Shown here: one piece after another, positions 1-21,393 of the stretch | How the letters are laid out: each line of letters begins with the position of its first letter | Position numbering within the stretch: the first letter of the stretch is position 1 | Virus record (IMG/VR): IMGVR_UViG_3300020172_001141 | Location: 1 to 22,229 of that record | Length of the DNA: 22,229 nt | From: a virus | Reading direction: 5' to 3' (one strand) | The notes under the pieces: model-generated | Told to the model about the DNA's origin: nothing | The model's input: the letters and a program-made list of their open reading frames with translations, nothing else | The model's database searches: none | Program-made: the position numbers and the translations under genes

Positions 1-74
1 AGATTCTTGAGTTGCTTGGCTCTGATGTTAAGGCTGGTCTAGAAAAATTGTTTGTTCCACCTGTCAGAAATTAA
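1..74 (+). CDS. 3' end of an unrecognised gene (partial)
   Basis: The window opens inside a reading frame (first full codon at 3) that ends at TAA 72-74. It encodes about 23 residues ending in LFVPPVRN. The codons are AT-rich and mixed like the phage core genes, not like the GC-rich gene that follows. The stop lies 14 nt before the next ATG, with AGGAG at 77-81 between them, so the two genes are probably co-transcribed. The fragment is too short to assign a family. Reading-frame continuity and the tight spacing are the only evidence that it is a gene. Confidence 0.6.
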   Translation, partial: ILELLGSDVKAGLEKLFVPPVRN

Positions 75-88
75 TTAGGAGAAAATAA

Positions 89-1798
89 ATGGCAACTCTG
101 TATTTCAACGGTGCGGTAGACGGCGAGTGGACAGAACTCGGCAACTGGTGGAGTGACGACCAGTTCACCGTGCAGGCGACGAGTCTGCCAGCCAGCACCG
201 ACGATGTGATCGCTACGGCTAGCATCTCCAGCAACAGTGGGGCTGCACCTACGGTAGCGAACCTGACAACGAGCCATCCTTTCTCTATTACCACCACCGT
301 CACCGGAGACGCGACGTTCACTGGCGATTCGTCCAACGCTGGCAATATCACGGGAAATGTGACGTTCCACAACAGTTCGGCCAACAGCGGCACCGTCACC
401 GGCGACGCGGTGTTCAACGACAGTTCGTACAACAACTACGGCACCGTCACCGGCGACGCGGTGTTCAACGAAAATTCGTTCAACAGCAGCGACGGCACCG
501 TCACCGGCAACGCGACGTTCAATGACGACGCGGACAACTACGGCACCGTCAGTGGCAACGCGACGTTCAACGACGGTGCGTACAACAGCGGCACCATCAC
601 CGGCAACGCGACATTTACGGCGTCATCGTATACGGGCAATCCAGTGGGCTATAGCGTCACTGGCACGGTGACGTTTTCTTCTGCAAGTCCTGTTTCTTTC
701 ACGATGAACAACGGCACGGGCGGTTGGAATGTTGACACAACCAATTGGGTTTTCACCACAGCGGGGCAGAACTGGACGTTCAACGACAGTTCGTACAACG
801 GCGGCACGCTCCGCTCCGGCGACGCGACGTTCAATGACAGTTCGTGGAACGCAAATTTTGTTTACGGCGACGCGACTTTCAACGACTACGCTTTCAATTC
901 TTCAAGCGGGTGGGCGTGGGCTGGCGCGACGTTCAACGACAATTCGTACAACGACGGCACCGTCAGTGGCGATGCGACGTTTGGCAGCGGTTCCAACAGC
1001 GGCACCGTCAGTGGCGATGCGACGTTTGGCAGCGGTTCCAACAGCGGCACCGTCAGTGGCGATGCGACGTTTGGCAGCGGCGGCTCCAACGGCGGCTATG
1101 TTTATGGCAATGCGACGTTTGCCGGTGCCTCGTACAACTCCGGCAACGTCAGCGGCAACGCGACGTTCAACGACAATACGGTCAACGCCAACGGCGCAAC
1201 CGTCGGCCTAGAAGCGACGTTCAACGACTATGCTTACAACAGCGGCTTCGTCGGCGGAGACGCGACGTTCAACGACGCTACTTACAACTCCGGCACCGTC
1301 AACGGCAGCGCAACGTTTTCGGCCTCCGCGTATTCTTTGGCCCCAGTAGGGACGGTTGTGGGGGCCGTCACATTCTCTTCGGCCACTCCAGTTAGTTTCA
1401 CGTTGACAGACTACCAGTGGAGCGCCGACGCCTCGCTGTGGGTTTTTGAAACTGCGGGGCAGCATTTGACGTTGAACGGCGCGTCGGCGTTCAATCCTCT
1501 TGGCGGTTCTGTGGTTGTCAACGGAGACTGTACGCTCAACGGCGCCTCCATCGTGTTTGGAGTTACTATCAACGGCAACTGCACGTTTAACGACAGTGCG
1601 TGGTTGGCGGGGGACAGCACCATCAACGGCAACTGCGCGTTCAACGACACTTCATACTTCTCGTCGCAGGAAGGTATTGCCATTAACGGAGATTGCGCGT
1701 TTAGCGGTCAGGCGTACAACGCGAGCAGAATCTCTGGCTCTGTTACCCCCGCCTACAAAACAGGCATCAACGGTTCCTCAATTCTTGGAATAGTATAA
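89..1798 (+). CDS. Repetitive beta-solenoid-like surface protein, probable phage fibre or adhesin
   Basis: A 569-residue protein made of degenerate repeats of about 15-20 residues around G(D/N)ATFND-SxNxGTVxG. Residues 1-70 are a non-repeat head with W/NWW and LPAxxDDV elements, resembling N-termini of secreted beta-helical repeat proteins. Repeats fill about 71-183, 229-417 and 459-550. Two related inserts interrupt them (about 184-228 and 418-458), each with a TFSSAxPVSFT segment and WVFxTAGQ. The last four repeats carry Cys where the others carry Ala (C481, C498, C516, C536), the only cysteines in the protein. The start is supported by AGGAG at 77-81. Codons are strongly GC-ending: 38 of 60 bases are G/C at 541-600 against 15 of 60 at 1861-1920 in the next gene, suggesting acquisition from another genome. 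A stacked beta-strand fibre is inferred. No enzymatic domain is recognised. Host adhesin or virion decoration are both possible. Confidence 0.75.
   Translation: MATLYFNGAVDGEWTELGNWWSDDQFTVQATSLPASTDDVIATASISSNSGAAPTVANLTTSHPFSITTTVTGDATFTGDSSNAGNITGNVTFHNSSANSGTVTGDAVFNDSSYNNYGTVTGDAVFNENSFNSSDGTVTGNATFNDDADNYGTVSGNATFNDGAYNSGTITGNATFTASSYTGNPVGYSVTGTVTFSSASPVSFTMNNGTGGWNVDTTNWVFTTAGQNWTFNDSSYNGGTLRSGDATFNDSSWNANFVYGDATFNDYAFNSSSGWAWAGATFNDNSYNDGTVSGDATFGSGSNSGTVSGDATFGSGSNSGTVSGDATFGSGGSNGGYVYGNATFAGASYNSGNVSGNATFNDNTVNANGATVGLEATFNDYAYNSGFVGGDATFNDATYNSGTVNGSATFSASAYSLAPVGTVVGAVTFSSATPVSFTLTDYQWSADASLWVFETAGQHLTLNGASAFNPLGGSVVVNGDCTLNGASIVFGVTINGNCTFNDSAWLAGDSTINGNCAFNDTSYFSSQEGIAINGDCAFSGQAYNASRISGSVTPAYKTGINGSSILGIV
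956..1080 (+). repeat. Perfect 45-bp tandem repeat, about 2.8 copies
   Basis: The unit begins GGCACCGTCAGTGGCGATGC and is 15 codons long. Copies run 956-1000 and 1001-1045 without a mismatch, and a third is identical over 1046-1080 before diverging. It encodes GTVSGDATFGSGSNS. Identity at the DNA level, among repeats that are otherwise degenerate, points to recent duplication by slippage or unequal recombination. It keeps the reading frame. Confidence 0.95.
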
Positions 1799-1803
1799 AA
1801 ACT

Positions 1804-2781
1804 ATGCCATTCTATATTAAAGGAAATAAATTATTAGCAAATAAAATATTGAGTAAATTCTCTAAAAATGTTATACCACAACATATTAATACCAGTACTG
1901 CTAATAGATTAATAGACAAAAACCCCTCAACAGACAGTTTAGTATACTCCAGCCAAAATCCTTATGGTGGCGTAGGAGACGCTGGCATTTGGGTTCGTAA
2001 TCCCAACTGTTGGATCAATGGAGTAAGTAATATAAGTTGTTTCAGTCCAGCACAGCGAAGCGGAGCGGCATGGAATACGCGGGCTGGAACACTAATTACC
2101 ACAAAACATATTATACAAGCCAAACACTATCTTACATCAATTCTGCCCGGTGGAACTCCAATAATTTTTGTAGACGAAAACAATAATGCTATAAGTCGCA
2201 AGATTGTGGGCTATGCTACTGATAGTACAGATATAGCAATAGGATTATTAGATAGCGACGTTCCTAATAATATAAAAATAGCTAAAGTATTACCAAAAAA
2301 CTTTAGAGATTATATTAGTCATACAGTTTTAGAGATAGAAAATAATAGCTTGGTATCTTTTGTCTTAACCCCTTTTCTATATTCTGTCTCTTTGGATCAA
2401 GAAGAAAAAGCTATTTTAAAAATTTTTTCTGGTGGCTATGCCACTAATTCTTCTGACGGAGTAAGATACGTTTCTGCTGAATTTTATAGTCCCAAAGCCA
2501 ACGATAGCTATCTATTAAATCAACAACCAAACCCATTGCCAAATCAATTTTCTAGTTGGTCAGAAACTATAATTGCTGGAGATAGCGGAAATCCTATTTT
2601 CTTAATTATAGATAATCAATTGGTGGTTTTAACTACTTGGTGGTCACCGGGCAATGGCCCATTCATATCAGATTCTGTAAGATATGATGCTATTAATAGT
2701 CTTATAGAAAGCTTAAGCCCCGGAGCGGGCTATAGTTTAACGCCTATTGATCTAGAATTAGTATATCACAAATATAGCTAA
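1804..2781 (+). CDS. Trypsin/chymotrypsin-fold serine protease
   Basis: A 325-residue protein with the three signatures of the S1/chymotrypsin fold in the right order. GTLITTKHIIQAKHYL at about 95-110 gives the candidate catalytic His108, in the place of TAAHC. STDIAIGLL at 141-149 gives Asp143, in the place of DIAL. AGDSGNPIF at 258-266 gives Ser261, with GDSGNP in place of the usual GDSGGP. No signal peptide is evident. Residues 1-60 are a polar, low-complexity-looking leader that could be a targeting or pro-region. The gene starts 5 nt after the repeat-protein stop with no good Shine-Dalgarno, so translation may be coupled. Base composition is strongly AT-rich, unlike the upstream gene. 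Processing of the neighbouring fibre, cleavage of a host surface protein, or action inside the host are all open. The fold call is firm; the biological role is inferred. Confidence 0.82.
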   Translation: MPFYIKGNKLLANKILSKFSKNVIPQHINTSTANRLIDKNPSTDSLVYSSQNPYGGVGDAGIWVRNPNCWINGVSNISCFSPAQRSGAAWNTRAGTLITTKHIIQAKHYLTSILPGGTPIIFVDENNNAISRKIVGYATDSTDIAIGLLDSDVPNNIKIAKVLPKNFRDYISHTVLEIENNSLVSFVLTPFLYSVSLDQEEKAILKIFSGGYATNSSDGVRYVSAEFYSPKANDSYLLNQQPNPLPNQFSSWSETIIAGDSGNPIFLIIDNQLVVLTTWWSPGNGPFISDSVRYDAINSLIESLSPGAGYSLTPIDLELVYHKYS

Positions 2782-2815: not shown

Positions 2816-3151
2816 ATGAAAAAACTACTACTCATAATTACCAGCTTATTTTTGATTGGGTGCGCATATCAGCCGCTTTGCCGTTTTAATGGCGAAGATG
2901 TGACCAATATGTACGCATATTATGTTGAAGAGTGGCAAAAAGAGGCTCAATCTTCTTTTGAAAGTGCTGAAAAAGCAGTATTTGAAGTTGCCCCAAAACC
3001 AGATGAAATTCTTGGGCCAAATCCCGACGCCTCTAAGTGTATTTGCAAAGGAAGTGGTATAATAGTACATGGCGATAAGCACACAACCCCGTGTCCTTAC
3101 CACCACAAAGGGGGTATTTCGATTAAAGCTCCCTCACCAGTTAAAAAATGA
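2816..3151 (+). CDS. Small lipoprotein with C-terminal Cys/His motif
   Basis: A 111-residue protein starting MKKLLLIITSLFLIGC, a short basic N-terminus, hydrophobic stretch and LIGC lipobox, so lipidation at Cys16 by the host is expected. The mature protein has a helical acidic middle (about 27-65) and a C-terminal motif KCICKGSG...HGDKHTTPCPYH (about 74-96). Its CxCxGxG followed by HGDxHxTPCP resembles half of a DnaJ-type zinc centre, seen in small phage proteins. AAGGAA at 2803-2808 supports the start. It heads a run of small membrane-associated genes (to 4520). Roles in lysis (outer spanin-like), superinfection exclusion or envelope remodelling are possible, but no family is recognised with certainty. 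Confidence 0.7.
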   Translation: MKKLLLIITSLFLIGCAYQPLCRFNGEDVTNMYAYYVEEWQKEAQSSFESAEKAVFEVAPKPDEILGPNPDASKCICKGSGIIVHGDKHTTPCPYHHKGGISIKAPSPVKK

Positions 3152-3161
3152 AAGGTTAATC

Positions 3162-3449
3162 ATGCAGAATTATATTGTTTACGGCCTAATTGCCATTGGT
3201 GTTTTATTTATACTATCCAACTTTGTAAATGCCAAGTACGTAATTTCATCACTATTCAAGAAAACTAAAGTAGATACCACGCCGTCAACAAGCGTTGATG
3301 AGGAAAATTTCCTACATATTATTTCTCTTTGGTATCAACTAAAAGAGTGTTGCGATAAGTGCAATCTCACGGCGGCATCAGACAAATTAGACGAAGTATT
3401 TCCACTTCTGAATCTAAACGAGGTTAAGCCCAATGACAAAGTTTCTTAA
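3162..3449 (+). CDS. Small membrane protein, unknown function
   Basis: Encodes 95 residues from ATG 3162, which has AAAGGT at 3151-3156 just upstream. An in-frame start at 3069 would overlap the lipoprotein gene by 83 nt and place hydrophilic residues before the membrane segment, so it is less likely. Residues about 4-25 (YIVYGLIAIGVLFILSNFV) form one membrane helix. The rest is a soluble domain with a CxxC pair (ECCDKC) and an amphipathic look. It overlaps the next gene by 17 nt. No family recognised. Confidence 0.65.
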   Translation: MQNYIVYGLIAIGVLFILSNFVNAKYVISSLFKKTKVDTTPSTSVDEENFLHIISLWYQLKECCDKCNLTAASDKLDEVFPLLNLNEVKPNDKVS

Positions 3450-3879
3450 TCTTAATACGCTAGTTGGCATACTTCTAATTGTTGGTGGCTTAGTTTTATA
3501 TAGACCAGCAATAGATAAAGACTTAATAAATTTAAACATTGATAAGCCATCGGCTAGCGTTTTAGAAACTGTTAAGCCAGTATCTCAATTAATAACAGAC
3601 CCAACGGACAAAGCTAAGTTTGCCATTTTCAATCAAGAATTTGCCAAACGTGTTATTAATTATAAGGCCGACATTCAACAGATCAATGATGTGTATGTTC
3701 TAGCGGCCTCTGCGTTTTTTAAAGATTCATTACGTGATAAGTATGAAGATTTAGACGTTAAGCTAGTTGATCTAATTAAAAGTATAACAACAGAAGACAA
3801 TCATAAACTGTCTCAGGAAGAACTCACAAAGATATCGGAATACTTTATGGGGCTTTCTTGGTCACTAATATATAACTAA
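3433..3879 (+). CDS. Small membrane-anchored protein, unknown function
   Basis: Encodes 148 residues. About 8-24 (NTLVGILLIVGGLVLY) is a single membrane helix at the N-terminus. The remaining 120 residues are predicted mostly helical and charged, consistent with a soluble domain on one side of the membrane. The start overlaps the end of the previous gene by 17 nt, suggesting coupled translation, and the next gene begins 2 nt after its stop. No signature motif or family recognised. The similar layout of its upstream neighbour (one helix plus a small soluble domain) suggests the two act together, which is inference. Confidence 0.65.
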   Translation: MTKFLNLNTLVGILLIVGGLVLYRPAIDKDLINLNIDKPSASVLETVKPVSQLITDPTDKAKFAIFNQEFAKRVINYKADIQQINDVYVLAASAFFKDSLRDKYEDLDVKLVDLIKSITTEDNHKLSQEELTKISEYFMGLSWSLIYN

Positions 3880-3881
3880 AC

Positions 3882-4520
3882 ATGAAAATACAAGTTCAAC
3901 AAATAAGAGATATTGTAGACGCGATCTTCTCTAAGATGGGATATAATATTAAGAACTTTAATATTCAATTTCCACATCCTCTAGATATCAAAATAGTTCG
4001 TGATGAAAAAGACAATATTGTTCTTAAATTCACGGGCGCTTTGCCCAAGGTTACTTGGCAGAAATTCATCACGCTAACCGCCAGAATCTCTGGAATTTCT
4101 TTGGGTCAAAAAGAGGGCGTTTTAATGCTCAAATATTTACCCGACGTTCCATTCTCATATGACGATCAATCAACAGAGCTTCTTTTTGGACAGGCTCAAC
4201 CATATGATTTTGGCGATATCTACAGTGAAATCAACTCAGAATACCAAGACGAAGAAAGAAAAATTTTAGCAAACAAGTGCTTGCATTATGCCTCTGAGTG
4301 GGCTACAATAGCTAACCAAAGCGGAAGCTTATCGGACACAACGTCGTGTCACCGTAGAAATTTGAAAAGAGATTGCAAAAACTTTGTAATGGATAATATT
4401 AAGACTGATCCAGAAATACAAGCTGGCTCAGTTATTATTACATTCCTATTTTTCTACGTTGTACTTCCAGTAGTTTTAAAGTTTGTTCTTGAAAGACTAT
4501 TTAAAAAGCTTTTTAGTTGA
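3882..4520 (+). CDS. Protein with C-terminal membrane anchor, unknown function
   Basis: Encodes 212 residues. The first 180 are soluble, with mixed beta and helix (DIKIVRDEKDNIVLKFTGAL near 35-54). About 183-203 (SVIITFLFFYVVLPVVLKFV) is a hydrophobic tail anchor followed by a basic end (ERLFKKLFS). It starts 2 nt after the preceding stop and closes the run of membrane-associated genes. A 40-nt gap then leads to nrdA. The C-tail topology differs from the N-anchored neighbours. No recognised domain. Confidence 0.65.
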   Translation: MKIQVQQIRDIVDAIFSKMGYNIKNFNIQFPHPLDIKIVRDEKDNIVLKFTGALPKVTWQKFITLTARISGISLGQKEGVLMLKYLPDVPFSYDDQSTELLFGQAQPYDFGDIYSEINSEYQDEERKILANKCLHYASEWATIANQSGSLSDTTSCHRRNLKRDCKNFVMDNIKTDPEIQAGSVIITFLFFYVVLPVVLKFVLERLFKKLFS

Positions 4521-4560: not shown

Positions 4561-6798
4561 ATGCGTGTTCAGAAGAGGAACGGCAGCGTTGAAGCATATA
4601 ATGTAGAAAAAATCCACAAGGTTCTTGAGTGGGCGATAAAAGATATCAGCAACGTATCGTGGTCAGATATAGAAATGAACGCCAAGCTGTCTCTTGATGA
4701 CGGCATAAGCACAAAAGATATTCATCAAATTCTAATCAAGTCTGCTAACGACCTTATGTCGCCAAGCAGGCCAAACTATCAATATGTCGCCTCTAGACTA
4801 TTGAATATGTCTTTAAGAAAAGACTTGTGGGAAAGATACGATAACCCACCCTCTCTACATAACCACCTAAAAAATAACGTTGGGGATGGCATATATGATC
4901 CTCAAATTTTAGATAAGTGGTCTAAAGAAGACATTGAAGAAATACAAGAGTTCTTAGATCACGATAGAGATTATTTATTCACATATGCTGGACTACAGCA
5001 ATTAATAGATAAATATCTTGTAAAGAATAGGGCAACTGGCAAGATATATGAAACGCCACAGTTTGCTTATATGGCAATAGCTATGGCCTTATTCCACACC
5101 ATTAAAGATGTAAAAGAGGCTTATGAGTGTTTTTCTACTTTCAAGATTAATCTTCCCACACCAATTATGGCGGGCGTAAGAACTAATATTAAGCAGTTTG
5201 CTAGCTGCGTATTGGTTGATGTTGATGATGATTTAGCATCTATATTCTCTAGCGTTCATGCCGTTGGCAAATACACAGCACGACGAGCAGGAATAGGTTT
5301 AAATATGGGTAGAATTCGCCCCATTAATTCTAGCATTAGAGGCGGCGAGGTTATACATACTGGTCTTATCCCATACTTAAAGATATTTGAATCAACAGTT
5401 AAGGCTACTAGTCAGAATGGTATTCGCGGCGGCTCTGCCACCGTACACATTCCATTTTGGCATTATGAAATAGAAGACGTTGTAGCATTAAAGAACAATG
5501 CTGGAACTGACGATAATAGGGTGAGAAAGCTAGACTATTCTATACAGTTTAATAAGCTGTTTTATGAACGTCTAATTAAGAATGAAGATATTACTTTGTT
5601 TAGCCCAGAAGAAACGGGCGGTCTTTATAGCTCCATGAATGATAATGAAGACTTTAAAAAGCTATATGAAAAATATGAGAATAGCCGCTATGTTAAAATG
5701 AAGAAAAAGATTAGTGCTAGAAAGTTAGCAGAAATATTTGCTAAAGAAAGATTAGAAACTGGCCGCATATATGTTATGAATATTGACAACGCTAACGAAC
5801 ACGGGTCGTGGCTTACTCCAGTATATATGAGTAATTTGTGTCAGGAAATAATTCACCCAACTAAACCAATTTCATCTATTGACGATAAAGAGGGAGAGAT
5901 TGGAATTTGTATTTTATCGGCACTAAACTTACTAGAACTTGAAGATGACAAAGATACTGAAAAAGCATGTTCAGTTGCTGTTCGTACTTTAGAATATATT
6001 ATTGATTACCAAGACTATCCAATTGTTGCTGGTGAGAATTTTACCAAAAATAGAAGATCGCTTGGTATAGGGATCACTAATTTTGCAGCATATCTTGCTA
6101 AAAATAAACTCAAATATGATGATCCAGATACGCTAAAATTAGTTCATGAAACTATGGAAAAAATTCAGTGGTATTTGCTCAATGAATCTTGCAAATTGGC
6201 TGAGATCAAGGGGCCATGCTCCAAGTTTAATGAAACAAAATATGCCCAAGGTTTGTTGCCGATAGATTGGTACAAAAAATCAGTTGACGAACTAGTTAAG
6301 CCAGAGTATACTATGGATTGGGAAGGTCTTAGATCAAGAATAAAAACCTACGGACTAAGGCACTCTACCCTAACCGCCATAATGCCCTGTGAGTCCTCTA
6401 GCGTCATCCAGAACAGCACTAATGGCATAGAACCTGTCAGGAACCTAATGTCTTACAAGAAGGCTAAGAATGGCATTTTAAAGCAGCTAGTGCCAAACTA
6501 TATGTCTCGTAAAAACTACTATACTTTAGCTTGGGAAATGGAAAACAATAAGGCCATACTTAATATTTGTGCCACATTGCAAAAATTTGTAGACATGAGT
6601 ATTAGTGTTAATCTATACTATAATTATTCTCATTATCCAGAAGGAAATATCCCCTTGAGTATTTTAATCAAAGATCAATTATATGGGTATAGATATGGTA
6701 TAAAGAACTTTTATTACTGCAACACGCCCGACTCTGATGGGAATACAGAAAAAGACATGTTATCTGAAACTTGTTCTGGAGGATCGTGTGCAATCTAA
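4561..6798 (+). CDS. nrdA: Class Ia ribonucleoside-diphosphate reductase, alpha subunit
   Basis: A 745-residue large subunit that reduces ribonucleoside diphosphates to deoxyribonucleotides for phage DNA synthesis, working with NrdB at 8028. Residues about 1-90 are an ATP-cone-like allosteric domain (VQKRNGSVEAYNVEKI). Active-site residues follow E. coli NrdA: Cys216 and Cys450 as the reducing pair, the N425-L-C427-Q-E429 motif with the thiyl Cys427, radical-transfer tyrosines Y718/Y719, and the mobile C-terminal pair C738/C743 in CSGGSC. PCESSSVIQNSTNGIEP is the conserved phosphate-binding segment. Length is close to the E. coli enzyme, so there is no intein. AGAGGGGA at 4547-4554 supports the start. 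The last codons overlap the start of a homing endonuclease remnant. Confidence 0.97.
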   Translation: MRVQKRNGSVEAYNVEKIHKVLEWAIKDISNVSWSDIEMNAKLSLDDGISTKDIHQILIKSANDLMSPSRPNYQYVASRLLNMSLRKDLWERYDNPPSLHNHLKNNVGDGIYDPQILDKWSKEDIEEIQEFLDHDRDYLFTYAGLQQLIDKYLVKNRATGKIYETPQFAYMAIAMALFHTIKDVKEAYECFSTFKINLPTPIMAGVRTNIKQFASCVLVDVDDDLASIFSSVHAVGKYTARRAGIGLNMGRIRPINSSIRGGEVIHTGLIPYLKIFESTVKATSQNGIRGGSATVHIPFWHYEIEDVVALKNNAGTDDNRVRKLDYSIQFNKLFYERLIKNEDITLFSPEETGGLYSSMNDNEDFKKLYEKYENSRYVKMKKKISARKLAEIFAKERLETGRIYVMNIDNANEHGSWLTPVYMSNLCQEIIHPTKPISSIDDKEGEIGICILSALNLLELEDDKDTEKACSVAVRTLEYIIDYQDYPIVAGENFTKNRRSLGIGITNFAAYLAKNKLKYDDPDTLKLVHETMEKIQWYLLNESCKLAEIKGPCSKFNETKYAQGLLPIDWYKKSVDELVKPEYTMDWEGLRSRIKTYGLRHSTLTAIMPCESSSVIQNSTNGIEPVRNLMSYKKAKNGILKQLVPNYMSRKNYYTLAWEMENNKAILNICATLQKFVDMSISVNLYYNYSHYPEGNIPLSILIKDQLYGYRYGIKNFYYCNTPDSDGNTEKDMLSETCSGGSCAI
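6778..6783 (+). promoter_or_regulatory. GGAGGA site inside the nrdA end, serving the endonuclease remnant
   Basis: GGAGGA is made by the codons for Gly-Gly in the conserved CSGGSC end of NrdA. It lies 4 nt before an in-frame GTG at 6788, which would give MQSNIKDLLEYNPKTGEIFW, the expected N-terminus of an HNH endonuclease. The site may therefore be borrowed from a fixed NrdA sequence. Spacing is short, and function is inferred. Confidence 0.4.
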
Positions 6799-7422: not shown

Positions 7423-8025
7423 ATGCACATCGATTTTATTGAGATAGGTACGTCAAATTTTGATAGCTTAATACAAAGAGTATCCGATAATGAAACCGGA
7501 ATATCTATAGAGCCATTAAAACACCTATTAGATCAATTACCAAATAAATCAAATGTAAAAAAAATAAATTTGGCCATATCAAATAAATGTGGAGTTATTG
7601 ATATTTACTACGTAACACAGGAAAATATTAATCAATATTCTTTACCTTGGTGGTTCATTGGTTCAAATTCTGTTAATAGTATACATGCTGGCGTTGCAAG
7701 AGTATTAAAAGAAATGAAACTTCCATCTTCACTAGTACAAAAAAATACGGTGGAAACAAAAAAACTTTCTACTATAATAGACGAACACGGCATAACATCG
7801 TTCAATTTACTTAAAATAGATACTGAGGGCCATGACGCAGTTATATTAGAAGATTATTTGAGCGATTGTAAAATGAGAAATTATCCACTACCAAAGATTA
7901 TTCATTTCGAAAATAATGGTCTATATCCAAAAATAGATTATGTAAAAATCAAGAATATGGCAATAGATTTGGGTTATAATAATATAAGAGAATCAGCAGC
8001 AGACACCATAATGTATAGGATATAA
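7423..8025 (+). CDS. FkbM-family SAM-dependent methyltransferase
   Basis: A 200-residue protein with the FkbM signature: IEIGT at 6-10 (SAM-binding loop), ISIEP at 27-31 (acidic residue for the SAM ribose) and LLKIDTEGHDAVIL at 129-142, the most diagnostic motif. FkbM enzymes O-methylate sugars or small molecules. The domain starts almost at the first residue, as in compact phage versions. The gene is strongly AT-rich with many ATA isoleucine codons, more so than nrdA, and splits the nrdA-nrdB pair, which suggests a later insertion. No clear ribosome site precedes ATG 7423. Likely target is a glycan, together with the transferases at 11251-13001 and 20539. That link is inferred. Confidence 0.85.
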   Translation: MHIDFIEIGTSNFDSLIQRVSDNETGISIEPLKHLLDQLPNKSNVKKINLAISNKCGVIDIYYVTQENINQYSLPWWFIGSNSVNSIHAGVARVLKEMKLPSSLVQKNTVETKKLSTIIDEHGITSFNLLKIDTEGHDAVILEDYLSDCKMRNYPLPKIIHFENNGLYPKIDYVKIKNMAIDLGYNNIRESAADTIMYRI

Positions 8026-8027
8026 AA

Positions 8028-9107
8028 ATGAAAACAATATTGAATAAGAATAATGTTGACTACTTAACACAACCGCTATTTTTAGGAGAAGACTTATCTC
8101 TACAGCGATATGATAAGTTTAAATATCCTGTATTTTTTGATCTCTATAAGAAGCAACTTGAATTCTTTTGGCGTCCAGAAGAAATTGAATTGAAGAAAGA
8201 TAGAAACGATTTCAAGAATGACGATATAATGTCAGAGAATGAACGTTTTATTTTTACTTCTAATCTTAAGTATCAGACAGTGATGGACAGCGTTATCTGT
8301 CGTGGAGTTCCCACATTAACACAATATGTTTCTAATCCAGAATTAGAAGCCTGTATGAATGTGTGGCAATTTTTCGAACAAATTCACAGCTATAGTTACA
8401 CATATATCATTAAAAATGTTTATAACAATCCTAGTGAGATATTAGACAGTTGTCTAACAGACAAAGAAATACTTAAAAGAGCTAACGTAGCAGTCAAAGA
8501 GTACAACGCTTTACGAGATATAGGACATTCTGGCAAACCTAAAGATATTAAAAGGCAGATTTACCTAACTCTTATTAGCGTTAATATTCTAGAGGCAGTT
8601 AGATTTTATGTGTCATTTATCTGCTCATTTGCTTTTGCCGAAAATAAGAAAATGATTGGCAATGCCGACATCATCAAACTTATTAAGCGTGACGAAGCAC
8701 TTCATCTATATAATACTCAAGAGATTATTAAGATTCTTCGAAACAATCCCGATGAGGGTTTCGTAAAGATAGCAGAAGAGTGCGAAGAAGATGCTATAGC
8801 AATGTTTGAGTCAGCTGCAAATGAAGAAAAGGCTTGGGCTGAATATCTCTTCAAAGATGGTTCTATTATTGGCTTAAATGAAAAAGTAATGGCAGATTAT
8901 GTTGATTGGCTATGTATGAGCCGAAGAAAAACTATTGGTTTACCATACGATAAGGGATGCAAAAACCCAATATCTGGATGGACTGACCCGTGGATGAATA
9001 GCGAATCTGTACAGGTGGCACCACAGGAACACGAAATTACTTCATATAAAATTGGTGCTAGTAAAAATGATTTAGAGGACATGGATTTAGGAGAAATGAA
9101 ATTATGA
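8028..9107 (+). CDS. nrdB: Class Ia ribonucleoside-diphosphate reductase, beta subunit
   Basis: A 359-residue small subunit that carries the di-iron tyrosyl radical used by NrdA. Ligands match E. coli NrdB: Asp87 (QTVMDS), Glu117 and His120 (FFEQIH), Glu189 (ILEAVRFYVSF), Glu223 and His226 (RDEALHL). The radical tyrosine is Tyr124 in SYSYTYI. All ligands are present, so the enzyme looks active and is a standard Fe/Tyr type rather than a Tyr-less variant. The acidic C-terminal tail (DLEDMDLGEMKL) is the likely docking peptide for NrdA. The gene begins 2 nt after the methyltransferase stop and overlaps dut by 4 nt (ATGA). It is separated from nrdA by about 1.2 kb of accessory genes. Confidence 0.97.
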   Translation: MKTILNKNNVDYLTQPLFLGEDLSLQRYDKFKYPVFFDLYKKQLEFFWRPEEIELKKDRNDFKNDDIMSENERFIFTSNLKYQTVMDSVICRGVPTLTQYVSNPELEACMNVWQFFEQIHSYSYTYIIKNVYNNPSEILDSCLTDKEILKRANVAVKEYNALRDIGHSGKPKDIKRQIYLTLISVNILEAVRFYVSFICSFAFAENKKMIGNADIIKLIKRDEALHLYNTQEIIKILRNNPDEGFVKIAEECEEDAIAMFESAANEEKAWAEYLFKDGSIIGLNEKVMADYVDWLCMSRRKTIGLPYDKGCKNPISGWTDPWMNSESVQVAPQEHEITSYKIGASKNDLEDMDLGEMKL

Positions 9108-10945: not shown

Positions 10946-11243
10946 TAAAAAGGGACCACTAAGCAAGGTTGAAGTGTTTTATATTCAAGAACACGTTAAG
11001 CTTGGTAAGGACATACACGACATTGCTACTGATTTAGATCGTGGCATTAAATCTATTGAGAGATGCGTAACAAAAGCACAAAAAGAATTTGCATCAAAGC
11101 CATTGACAGCAAGCGATCAGTTTGCTAGAACTAAGGGTTCTGTGGTAATGACAGAAAATGCCTCTACTATGGGCGACGTTGTGCGTAAGCGAAAACTTCC
11201 ACCAAAGACAGAAGCCTGCGTAACTGTTGTTAAAAAAGTTTGA
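10938..11243 (+). CDS. Small putative helix-turn-helix protein
   Basis: Encodes 101 residues. Residues about 8-45 (LSKVEVFYIQEHVKLGKDI then HDIATDLDRGIKSIERCV) read as two or three helices with a turn, like recombinase- or sigma-type helix-turn-helix domains, so DNA binding and transcription control are plausible. The C-terminal part is polar and contains GSVVMTENASTMGD. AAAGGAG at 10923-10929 gives a good ribosome site 8 nt before the ATG. It ends the tightly overlapping phoH-linked run. Assignment is from secondary-structure impression, not a diagnostic motif. Confidence 0.6.
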   Translation: MANKKGPLSKVEVFYIQEHVKLGKDIHDIATDLDRGIKSIERCVTKAQKEFASKPLTASDQFARTKGSVVMTENASTMGDVVRKRKLPPKTEACVTVVKKV

Positions 11244-11250
11244 TATAAGT

Positions 11251-11805
11251 ATGTTTGGAATTGACTCAAAATATTATCTTGGTGGATATGTAGTTGGTGG
11301 AGATAAAAATACATACGCCACCGAAACTTGGGATTGGATGATAGATAATAATATTAAGTCTATTATAGACATAGGGTGTGGAGAAGGATACTCTACCAAA
11401 TATTTTTTTGATAAAGGGTGTGACGTTTTAGGAATAGAAGGAAGCACAAAAGCAATAAATAATAGTCCAATTAAAAATAAATTAATATTGCACGACTATA
11501 CTCAAAAAGAATATATTCCAAACAAAAGATATGACGCCGCGTGGTGTTGCGAATTTGTGGAACACGTAGAAGAAAAATATATAGACAATTTTCTAGCTAC
11601 GATGAAATATGTGGATAAAATATTTTTGACACATGCTCTTCCGGGTCAAGGGGGATATCATCATGTCAACGAGCAAAACGCAGAATATTGGATAGATAAA
11701 ATAGAGTCTTTAAATTTTAGATTTAATTCTCTACTGTCTGAATATTTAAGAGCAATAACGGTGGCAAAGTGGACAAAAACATTGTTAGTGTTTGAAAAAA
11801 TATGA
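11251..11805 (+). CDS. Class I SAM-dependent methyltransferase
   Basis: Encodes 184 residues from ATG 11251. A TTG at 11227 in the same frame would overlap the previous gene, and its added residues fall outside the domain. Motif I IIDIGCGEG (38-46) binds SAM, IEGS (62-65) gives the acidic residue, EFVEHVEEKY (101-110) is the post-II region of Methyltransf_11/23 enzymes, and PGQGGYHHVNEQNAEYWI (131-148) is a conserved segment of small-molecule/sugar methyltransferases. Strongly AT-rich with many ATA codons, like the other glycan-type genes. It overlaps the GT25-like gene by 4 nt, so they form a translation-coupled pair. A sugar substrate is inferred from context. Confidence 0.85.
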   Translation: MFGIDSKYYLGGYVVGGDKNTYATETWDWMIDNNIKSIIDIGCGEGYSTKYFFDKGCDVLGIEGSTKAINNSPIKNKLILHDYTQKEYIPNKRYDAAWCCEFVEHVEEKYIDNFLATMKYVDKIFLTHALPGQGGYHHVNEQNAEYWIDKIESLNFRFNSLLSEYLRAITVAKWTKTLLVFEKI

Positions 11806-12431
11806 AATATTATTGCTTACACCACACGCCAGCTGTAGAAAGAAAACAATATCTTGAAATTTTTTTTGAGCAGCAAGACATAAAAGTTGAGTGGATAGAA
11901 GATTTTTTACCCACATGCGAAGAAGTGGCACAGTTTAGTCAAAAAATAAAATCTAAACATGCTGCAAAGAATGGAATTTTGAACAATGGAGAAATATCTC
12001 TTTTGCTAAAACACTCATTGGCATTAAAAAAAATATGCGAAATTAATGATTACGCTATCATATTTGAGGATGATATACAAAGTGTCAATTTTAAATTTAA
12101 TGATATTGCTTATGAGTTTAAAGATTTAGTAGAAAAGAATAATATAGATGTTTTATGGATAGGCTCTAGCCCAAATCATAGATGTGATATGCGCAAAACA
12201 AAGATATCTAGCATTTTAATTAATTCTAGAACAAACGCAAGACTATCACACTGTTATATGCTTCATTCAAAATTAGCATTAAGAATCTATGAAGAGTATT
12301 GTGATTTTAAACATCCATCAGATTGGCAATGGAATCATATAATAGATATATTCAAGTTAAGAAGTGCTTGGAGTTATCCGCATATTTATCAAAGAACAGA
12401 CGTTAGAGCAATTGACTCATTATTAAGATAA
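11802..12431 (+). CDS. Glycosyltransferase family 25-like (LPS glycosyltransferase type)
   Basis: A 209-residue protein. GEISLLLKHSLAL (63-75) and YAIIFEDD (84-91) match the GT25 core (GEIxCxxSHxxxW...ALILEDD). FEDD is the DxD-like metal and nucleotide-sugar site. The N-terminal MKYYCLHHTPAVERK matches the opening strand of GT25 enzymes, which normally has INL and RxxR. The family adds galactose or related sugars to lipopolysaccharide or protein glycans. Placed between two methyltransferases (ATGA overlap before, 3 nt gap after), so the three likely act on one substrate. Possible targets are virion proteins or host surface sugars. The length is slightly short for the family. Confidence 0.82.
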   Translation: MKYYCLHHTPAVERKQYLEIFFEQQDIKVEWIEDFLPTCEEVAQFSQKIKSKHAAKNGILNNGEISLLLKHSLALKKICEINDYAIIFEDDIQSVNFKFNDIAYEFKDLVEKNNIDVLWIGSSPNHRCDMRKTKISSILINSRTNARLSHCYMLHSKLALRIYEEYCDFKHPSDWQWNHIIDIFKLRSAWSYPHIYQRTDVRAIDSLLR

Positions 12432-12434
12432 CGC

Positions 12435-13001
12435 ATGAATTTTAAGCACATATATCACCTACCACAGTTTGGTCAGGATTGGTTTACTTTTCCAAAATTA
12501 TATTCATATTTTGTAAATAACGTTCCAAACGGTGGACATATAGTTGAAGTAGGCTCTTGGAAAGGCAAAAGTGCGGCCTATATGGCTGTAGAAATTATAA
12601 ACTCTAAAAAAAACATTAGACTTGATTGCATAGATCAATGGGACAAGTTTGATCCTACGCACTATAGTGATGATCAATACGCTAAGAATAATTCTGTATA
12701 TGAGTTATTTTTATCAAACATAGAGCCGGTTAAGCATGTGATTCATCCAATCAAAAAAGAATCCATAGAAGCAAGCAAGCTTTATGGTGACAAAACTATC
12801 GACATTGTTTTTATAGATGCTTGTCATGATTATGACTGTGTAATAAATGATATAAATGCATGGCTACCTAAAATAAAAACTGGTGGAATAATTGGTGGGC
12901 ATGATTATAATCAAGCTGGTGTAAAAATGGCTGTAAAAGATATATTATCAAATTTGGATATATTAGAACAAGAACTATGCTGGTATTGTAATATTAAATA
13001 A
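12435..13001 (+). CDS. Class I SAM-dependent methyltransferase (Methyltransf_24/CmcI type)
   Basis: A 188-residue protein. Motif I HIVEVGSWKGKSAAYM (35-50), acidic DQW (67-69), DIVFIDACHDYD (123-134) with the metal-type acidic residues, and GGIIGGHDY (150-158) are the features of the CmcI/MdmC-like, often metal-dependent O-methyltransferases. No clear Shine-Dalgarno precedes ATG 12435, 3 nt after the previous stop, so reinitiation is likely. It ends with a TAATG junction to the next gene. Together with 11251 and 11802 it forms a glycan-modification cassette. Substrate unknown. Confidence 0.83.
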   Translation: MNFKHIYHLPQFGQDWFTFPKLYSYFVNNVPNGGHIVEVGSWKGKSAAYMAVEIINSKKNIRLDCIDQWDKFDPTHYSDDQYAKNNSVYELFLSNIEPVKHVIHPIKKESIEASKLYGDKTIDIVFIDACHDYDCVINDINAWLPKIKTGGIIGGHDYNQAGVKMAVKDILSNLDILEQELCWYCNIK

Positions 13002-20538: not shown

Positions 20539-21393
20539 ATGTCTGATAAATTACTAACTATTGCTATGGCTACTTATGATGATTATGATGGAGTGTTTTT
20601 CTCCGTACAGTCATTGAGAATTTACCATCAGTTGTGTAGAACTGACGCTGTTCAGTTTATGGTTTTAGACGGCAACCCAAACAGCGAACACGGCAAAGCG
20701 TGTAAGTCATTTATAGAAAATCAAGCTAGAGGAAAGTATATTCCATATCATGGAGTGCCTAGCTCTTTTAATAAATACAAAACAGTAGATAATGCTGATG
20801 GTAAATATGTTCTTATAATGGATTGCCACGTTATTCTAGAGCCAAACGCAATATCGTCATTAATAGATTACTTTGCAAATAATCCAGACTGCAAAGACTT
20901 AATACAAGGCCCGCTATGGTATGATGATTTAATAAATATATCAACACACTTTGATCAAAAGTGGAGCGGAGACATGTATGGCACTTGGCAAACAAATAAA
21001 TTAGCATATGATAAGGGCGATCCTTTTGAAATTGAGATGCAGGGTATGGGATTATTAGCATTTGAAAAGTCTGCTTGGAAAGGCATTAATCCACATTTTA
21101 GAGGCTTTGGTGCAGAAGAAGGATACATAGCAGCAAAGTTCAAAGAGTGGGGAGGTAGAAACATATGCCTACCGTCTTTGAAATGGAATCATAGATTCGG
21201 AAGACCAAACGGTGTTAAGTACCCACTAATATTAGAAGATAGAATTTGGAACTACTTTGTTGGTTGGCTAGAAATAACCAAAGACCCAAACCATACAATG
21301 ATACAAGATATTCAAAAGTATTTTTCAGAACGAATTCCAGCCGGTAGCGTAAAAAGTATTTTACAATCCGCTATCGAAAAAGTATTAAACTAG
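20539..21393 (+). CDS. GT-A fold glycosyltransferase (GT2/GT27-like)
   Basis: A 284-residue protein. LTIAMATYDDYDGVFFSVQS (6-25) is the GT2 opening strand and loop, LIMDCHVIL (92-100) contains a DxD-like DCH metal motif (95-97), and FRGFGAEEGYIAAKFKEW (187-204) with WNHRF (216-220) matches the galactosyl/GalNAc-transferase C-terminal element. It transfers a sugar from a nucleotide donor. The acceptor may be a phage structural protein or host glycan. AGAGG at 20529-20533 supports ATG 20539. It stands apart from the glycan block at 11251-13001. The next gene, possibly a virion protein, follows 9 nt after its stop, so modification of virion proteins is suggested. Confidence 0.85.
   Translation: MSDKLLTIAMATYDDYDGVFFSVQSLRIYHQLCRTDAVQFMVLDGNPNSEHGKACKSFIENQARGKYIPYHGVPSSFNKYKTVDNADGKYVLIMDCHVILEPNAISSLIDYFANNPDCKDLIQGPLWYDDLINISTHFDQKWSGDMYGTWQTNKLAYDKGDPFEIEMQGMGLLAFEKSAWKGINPHFRGFGAEEGYIAAKFKEWGGRNICLPSLKWNHRFGRPNGVKYPLILEDRIWNYFVGWLEITKDPNHTMIQDIQKYFSERIPAGSVKSILQSAIEKVLN

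Follow-up and report, generated by a model that had tools for sequence, protein, structure and literature searches.

A predicted chymotrypsin-fold serine protease encoded beside tail fibre genes in uncultured phages

The known enzymes of phage tails are mostly sugar-cutting depolymerases and cell-wall hydrolases. The virus record IMGVR_UViG_3300020172_001141 raises the question of what a protease with the catalytic signature of chymotrypsin might do directly behind the gene for a repeat-rich fibre protein. The window, by which we mean the whole stretch of DNA analysed, is the complete record of 22,229 bases, itself probably a fragment of a larger genome.

The protease gene occupies positions 1804-2781 on the plus strand, starts with ATG and encodes 325 residues. 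Its translation bears out the preliminary description of this DNA, which had placed three catalytic residues in the correct order: His108 (codon 2125-2127), Asp143 (2230-2232) and Ser261 (2584-2586), all on the plus strand, the last lying within AGDSGNP (residues 258-264) and thus in the GDSGxP motif at the nucleophile. Close relatives in IMG/VR are 47-66% identical. A scan with a DNA pattern for GD-x-G-[NS]-P-x-F-x-I-x-[DN]-N, in which the Ser codon was left free, yielded 43 viral and 8 cellular stretches, and nearly all of the viral matches are homologous across the protease domain. Relatives found in this way were selected for the GD and G positions, but the pattern placed no constraint on the Ser codon or on the parts of the protein around His and Asp. 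Homologues keep the triad, as His108, Asp143 and Ser261 are each invariant in 33 of 33 aligned rows, and it is therefore not a chance arrangement. His102 is likewise invariant in this alignment, as are Gly259, Asp260, Gly262, Pro264, Phe266 and Asn271, which were imposed by the search pattern for part of the set. Values of dN/dS in homologue pairs (0.08-0.34) indicate purifying selection.

Structure prediction and a serine-protease search, the checks proposed in the preliminary description, agree on a chymotrypsin fold. With 7 alignment rows AF2 gave a pLDDT of 38, but 33 rows resolved the fold, with a pLDDT of 91.1 and a pTM of 0.89. The predicted model aligns to bovine chymotrypsin (VIA-align) with a Z of 15.8 over 186 residues at 3.0 A, and 992 of 1000 compared chains reach Z >= 8. 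The best 50 PDB matches from Foldseek are all chymotrypsin-fold, almost all of them S1 proteases, plus HGF-beta-type relatives, and the closest viral structure model is that of an uncharacterised protein from an uncultured phage. Elements of the model follow the order seen in chymotrypsin, with His108 just after a strand, Asp143 and Ser261 each just before one, and a helix at residues 291-304. When the family profile was compared with PDB sequences, 16 of the 17 matches were S1 proteases, each of them weak (E 0.035 to 3). The window protein alone has no Pfam or PHROG family match and no meaningful PDB sequence match, and the Pfam Trypsin model gives no match above its curated cut-off, the best among the 33 homologues being E 0.13 for one member. 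We therefore call the protein S1-like, not a member of the catalogued Trypsin family, and conclude from the predicted model that the product of 1804-2781 is a chymotrypsin-fold serine protease.

The likeness to MEROPS family S1 (chymotrypsin, trypsin and elastase; PF00089) comprises the predicted double-barrel fold, the His-Asp-Ser order, GDSGxP at the Ser and a TLIT-x-x-H-(5)-H segment at the His. In contrast to S1 members, the window protease falls short of the Pfam cut-off, lacks both a Cys right after the catalytic His and an Asp at the residue-189 position, possesses an extra conserved N-terminal helix and Cys69...Cys79 segment, and is encoded in phage tail modules. The equivalent of Asp189, as placed by sequence alignment only, is Thr255, and the position varies across the family (T, D, A, P, G, N, E, S and others). 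Arg/Lys specificity is therefore unexpected, and the earlier label of trypsin-like does not hold for specificity. For a possible zymogen activation at Arg35-Leu36, which resembles R15-I16 of chymotrypsin, no pocket residue for the Arg was found. Among close relatives the most variable part of the protein is residues 171-250 (2314-2553, plus strand), in the Asp143-Ser261 interval, where the mean frequency of the top residue is mostly 0.32-0.48 (0.62-0.68 at 191-210), compared with about 0.64-0.92 in the rest of the protease domain (residues 21-170 and 251-325). By its position, this stretch would form the start of the second barrel. A separate observation concerns the proteases of loci L067 (9751-10656) and L071 (360-1265), which are 97.7% identical; four of their seven residue differences cluster in a loop next to the S1 pocket that corresponds to residues 277-284 of the window protease.

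The preliminary description considered such a protease to be uncommon in tailed phages and distinct from the prohead type, and both statements are upheld. A tblastn search of 50,697 phage records with four family members as queries found one relative, the uncultured podovirus MW202510, and the protein of this distant podovirus, used in turn as query against viral sequences, gave no match. Like prohead proteases, the window protease is a phage-encoded serine peptidase in a structural gene region, but it differs from them in its predicted chymotrypsin fold in a neighbourhood of tail fibre genes, not portal or capsid genes, and in its probable role; in MW202510 a separately annotated putative protease adjoins the capsid gene. 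A trypsin-like serine protease has been reported in alphaproteobacterial phage cluster N (PMC10783043), and is alike in belonging to tailed phages. It is probably another lineage, given that MW202510 was the only named phage matched by the four queries. No description of a fibre-linked protease family was found in open-licence papers. What appears to be new here is a family outside Pfam and PHROGs and its link to receptor-binding fibres, the S1-type fold and chemistry being already known.

The upstream gene (89-1798, plus strand) encodes a repeat fibre protein of 569 residues, with an N-terminal LYFN..W..LGNWW domain, repeats of about 16 residues ('GTVTGDATFNDSSYNN') and a conserved C-terminus, GINGSSILGIV. 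It is a probable beta-solenoid and has a weak Bactofilin match. As the preliminary description stated, the protease directly follows this GC-rich gene, starting 5 bases past its stop, and GC content is 0.574 in the repeat gene versus 0.347 in the protease gene. GC3 is 0.72-0.76 in the repeat genes of the window (89-1798), L002 (347-1384), L005 (6303-8001) and L008 (773-1897) and 0.24-0.29 in the protease genes adjoining them; homologous repeat genes in L006 and L012 have a low GC3 of 0.26-0.34, and the compositional jump is gene-specific. The C-terminal consensus G[IV]NG[SC][SG][IL]LG[IV] is common to the repeat proteins of the window (1750-1798), L002, L005, L006, L008, L012 and L030 and is retained even where the remainder diverges, and L072 and L069 encode a small tail protein with a similar ending, GSSGILGV. 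It is possibly an assembly motif; GINGSSILGIV as a signal for the protease was set aside, because L030 has the motif without a protease. In front of the repeat gene, positions 3-74 (plus strand) hold the C-terminal end of a small tail-module ORF, whose last 23 codons (ILELLGSDVKAGLEKLFVPPVRN, then the stop) are shared, and the same ORF lies ahead of the repeat gene in L003, L005 and L030.

Whether the two genes form a pair, as had been proposed, was assessed in the close relatives, and the pairing is kept, as adjacent or fused genes, in seven of ten distinct ones, the window counted. A repeat homologue lies directly upstream of the protease in the window, L002-L004, L005/L009, L006, L008 and L012/L013, and in these repeat-linked loci the ends of the two genes touch or lie within about 22 bases of each other. 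L010/L011 have a fusion in one ORF, in which the protease domain is followed by the N-terminal domain and C-terminal motif of the repeat protein, the repeats being absent. L022 and L024 encode the protease without a repeat gene directly upstream, the upstream gene in L024 resembling a glycosyltransferase, and in L067 that position is taken by a phage-tail-repeat fibre. Two protease domains per ORF are found in L002-L004; the 634-residue ORF of L002/L003 (L002 1389-3293) is a tandem duplication with both catalytic domains complete. L012 (8001-8375) and L013 (6960-7334) carry an in-frame deletion of about 200 residues that removes the catalytic core and keeps both ends. Because these contigs share 9,180 identical bases, the deletion counts as one observation, and it means that at least one assembled genome can do without the activity. 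L030 encodes a homologous repeat protein with the same C-terminus, and no protease was detected in its 99.9 kb contig. The fibre module further contains an Mtd_N gene in L005 and tail-fibre PHROGs, and the genes downstream of the protease in L005, L006 and L012 are tail genes. A search for the tail sheath gave a match in the contig of L030 only. One tail-locus protein of L005 shares 49% identity with a Pseudanabaena phage Pam2 protein.

In distant homologues the gene before the protease often encodes a fibre with the N-terminal domain of the Bordetella phage major tropism determinant, Mtd (Mtd_N, PF18454), which was found in 9 of 22 fibre-locus neighbour genes. The matches shown include L047 (twice), L054, L055, L069, L072 and L076, those of L072 and L076 being below the Pfam cut-off. 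L047 and L069 carry two fibre-protease pairs in tandem. The likeness to Mtd thus lies in the fibres directly upstream of distant members, whereas the fibre of the window lacks Mtd_N and is built of repeats, and we know of no protease partner of Mtd.

Beyond the fibre-protease slot, the window continues into a backbone block. Its first gene encodes a small lipoprotein (2816-3151, plus strand; 47-52% identity in L047, L069, L072 and L076), and the block also holds a membrane-anchored protein (3882-4520, plus strand; 57-61% in backbone relatives) and the ribonucleotide reductase genes nrdA (4561-6798; 87%) and nrdB (8028-9107; 91-92%). The match to L069 and L076 is in the same order: lipoprotein, three membrane-type proteins, NrdA (87%), NrdB (91-92%), dUTPase (79-80%) and PhoH (88%). 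However, the slot before the lipoprotein in L069 and L076 is filled by Mtd_N fibres and by proteases 30-38% identical to that of the window, and over all backbone relatives the range is 27-38%, with L072 at 27%. In L076 a sulfotransferase-like gene lies between the slot and the lipoprotein. Phylogenetic analysis places the window protease within the repeat-linked clade (SH-aLRT 100), and a tree forcing it together with the proteases of the backbone relatives is rejected (p-AU 0.0002). Since the backbone relatives have a different pair and the constrained tree is rejected, fibre and protease were apparently replaced together, and the two genes appear to be exchanged between phages as a matched pair. 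The window contig could instead be chimeric at 2781-2816, a junction known from this contig alone.

Several further genes in or near the slot may be mentioned. Sulfotransferase-like genes occur in or beside it in L076 (3540-4340), L082 (4544-5344), L055 (4402-5250) and L024 (3884-4486). The lipoprotein and membrane proteins at window 2816-4520 are conserved in order in the backbone group and could be a lysis cassette. Elsewhere in the window (7423-8025, 11227-13001 and 20539-21393) are genes for methyltransferases, one of them FkbM-type, and for GT25- and GT2-type glycosyltransferases, and these enzymes may modify glycans or virion proteins.

A search of cellular genome contigs with query A3 found no relative, whereas the DNA motif scan did find cellular ones. 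With a profile built solely from phage members, matches of E 1e-10 or better were obtained in 32 of 190 Verrucomicrobiales genomes, in none of 198 genomes from the phylum of L091 (Bacteroidota) and in none of 199 from that of L088 (Bacillota), the three groups that were compared. Some cellular homologues, for example that of Luteolibacter, adjoin phage-like genes. As a check for cyanophages, the photosystem family PF00124 was sought in 28 contigs, many of them fragments, and was absent. As a lead, the sequence matches in these three groups point to Verrucomicrobiota as the source and perhaps as the host. To our knowledge, few phages of Verrucomicrobiota have been described. Several of the Verrucomicrobiales homologues (L105, L110-L118 and profile matches) resemble secreted lipoproteins.

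What, then, might the protease do? The explanation that we put first, with about even confidence, is a tail-associated protease that is delivered by the fibre and trims host surface proteins. The gene would encode an active S1-fold serine endopeptidase belonging to the tail-fibre (adhesin) module; the enzyme would travel with its partner fibre at the tip of the tail and, where the phage adsorbs, would cut host-surface proteins in the way that polysaccharide depolymerases cut capsule. It would resemble those tailspike polysaccharide hydrolases and lyases in clearing the way from a position at the receptor-binding tip, but would differ in being a peptidase and a separate protein, not part of the trimeric spike. 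We infer activity, virion presence (from genomic context) and a host-surface-protein substrate from the predicted fold, the invariant triad, purifying selection, the fibre linkage, the one fusion and the exchange at the slot; variability at position 189 and in region 171-250 is expected if substrates differ. L022 and L024, without an upstream repeat gene, and the core deletion in L012/L013 count against this explanation. Moreover, linkage and co-exchange would follow equally well if every protease acted in the maturation of its own fibre.

Maturation is accordingly the main rival. While the particle is being assembled, the protease would cut its partner fibre, or else some other protein of the tail, with a specificity that has co-evolved with that fibre. 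Overlap or near contact of the two genes fits such a role, paired exchange is explained just as well by it, and the conserved GINGSSILGIV could be the recognition site. However, L030 has a repeat protein with the same motif and no detected protease, the similar GSSGILGV also ends a tail protein encoded next to other kinds of fibre, proteases of this one family accompany fibre types that are unrelated, and the repeat gene of L012/L013 persists beside a protease that has lost its core. The early suggestion that the protease matures the repeat protein is thus weakened, the close pairing standing and the maturation itself looking unlikely to us. We consider a late intracellular or lysis-phase protease, degrading host envelope or regulatory proteins and neighbouring late genes by chance, to be more improbable again. 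The possible lysis cassette of lipoprotein and small membrane proteins comes next in the window and in L047, L069, L072 and L076, and the verrucomicrobial cellular homologues look like secreted lipoproteins, but tail genes follow instead in L005, L006 and L012, and both the fusion and the pairing point to fibres. Furthermore, no signal peptide was seen by eye in the window's phage protease, so ordinary secretion is not implied. Chymotrypsin-fold domains of the Umb type bind rather than cut, and three Umb1 toxin particle chains are among the best 50 Foldseek matches in the PDB; the fold is thus also found in toxin particles, and the phage protein might be a binding module. If the domain served binding alone, some members would be expected to have lost the triad and GDSG, yet these are invariant even though the scan left the Ser codon free, and we regard mere binding as very improbable.

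Carriers of the protease in tail fibre clusters are uncultured freshwater-type phages. Extending a tail-associated role to the whole family is more tentative, and we would put it at clearly less than even confidence: these loci may be widespread, unrecognised adsorption modules, in which every receptor-binding fibre is accompanied by its own S1 protease, carried in the virion to digest surface proteins of the host, and both are exchanged as one when hosts change. Such modules would be the proteolytic counterpart of capsule depolymerases, directed mainly against Verrucomicrobiota and apparently related to their secreted proteases. If a fibre-tied, exchanged protease family is confirmed, protein surface layers would join the targets of phages, the gene pair would allow an adsorption module of a new kind to be recognised in genomes, and the family would offer a set of proteases with naturally varied specificity. 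Verrucomicrobiota as the host of these uncultured lake-type phages is a testable hint. Taken together, the findings suggest that, in some phages, the enzymes delivered to the bacterial surface may include a protease in addition to those that cut sugars.
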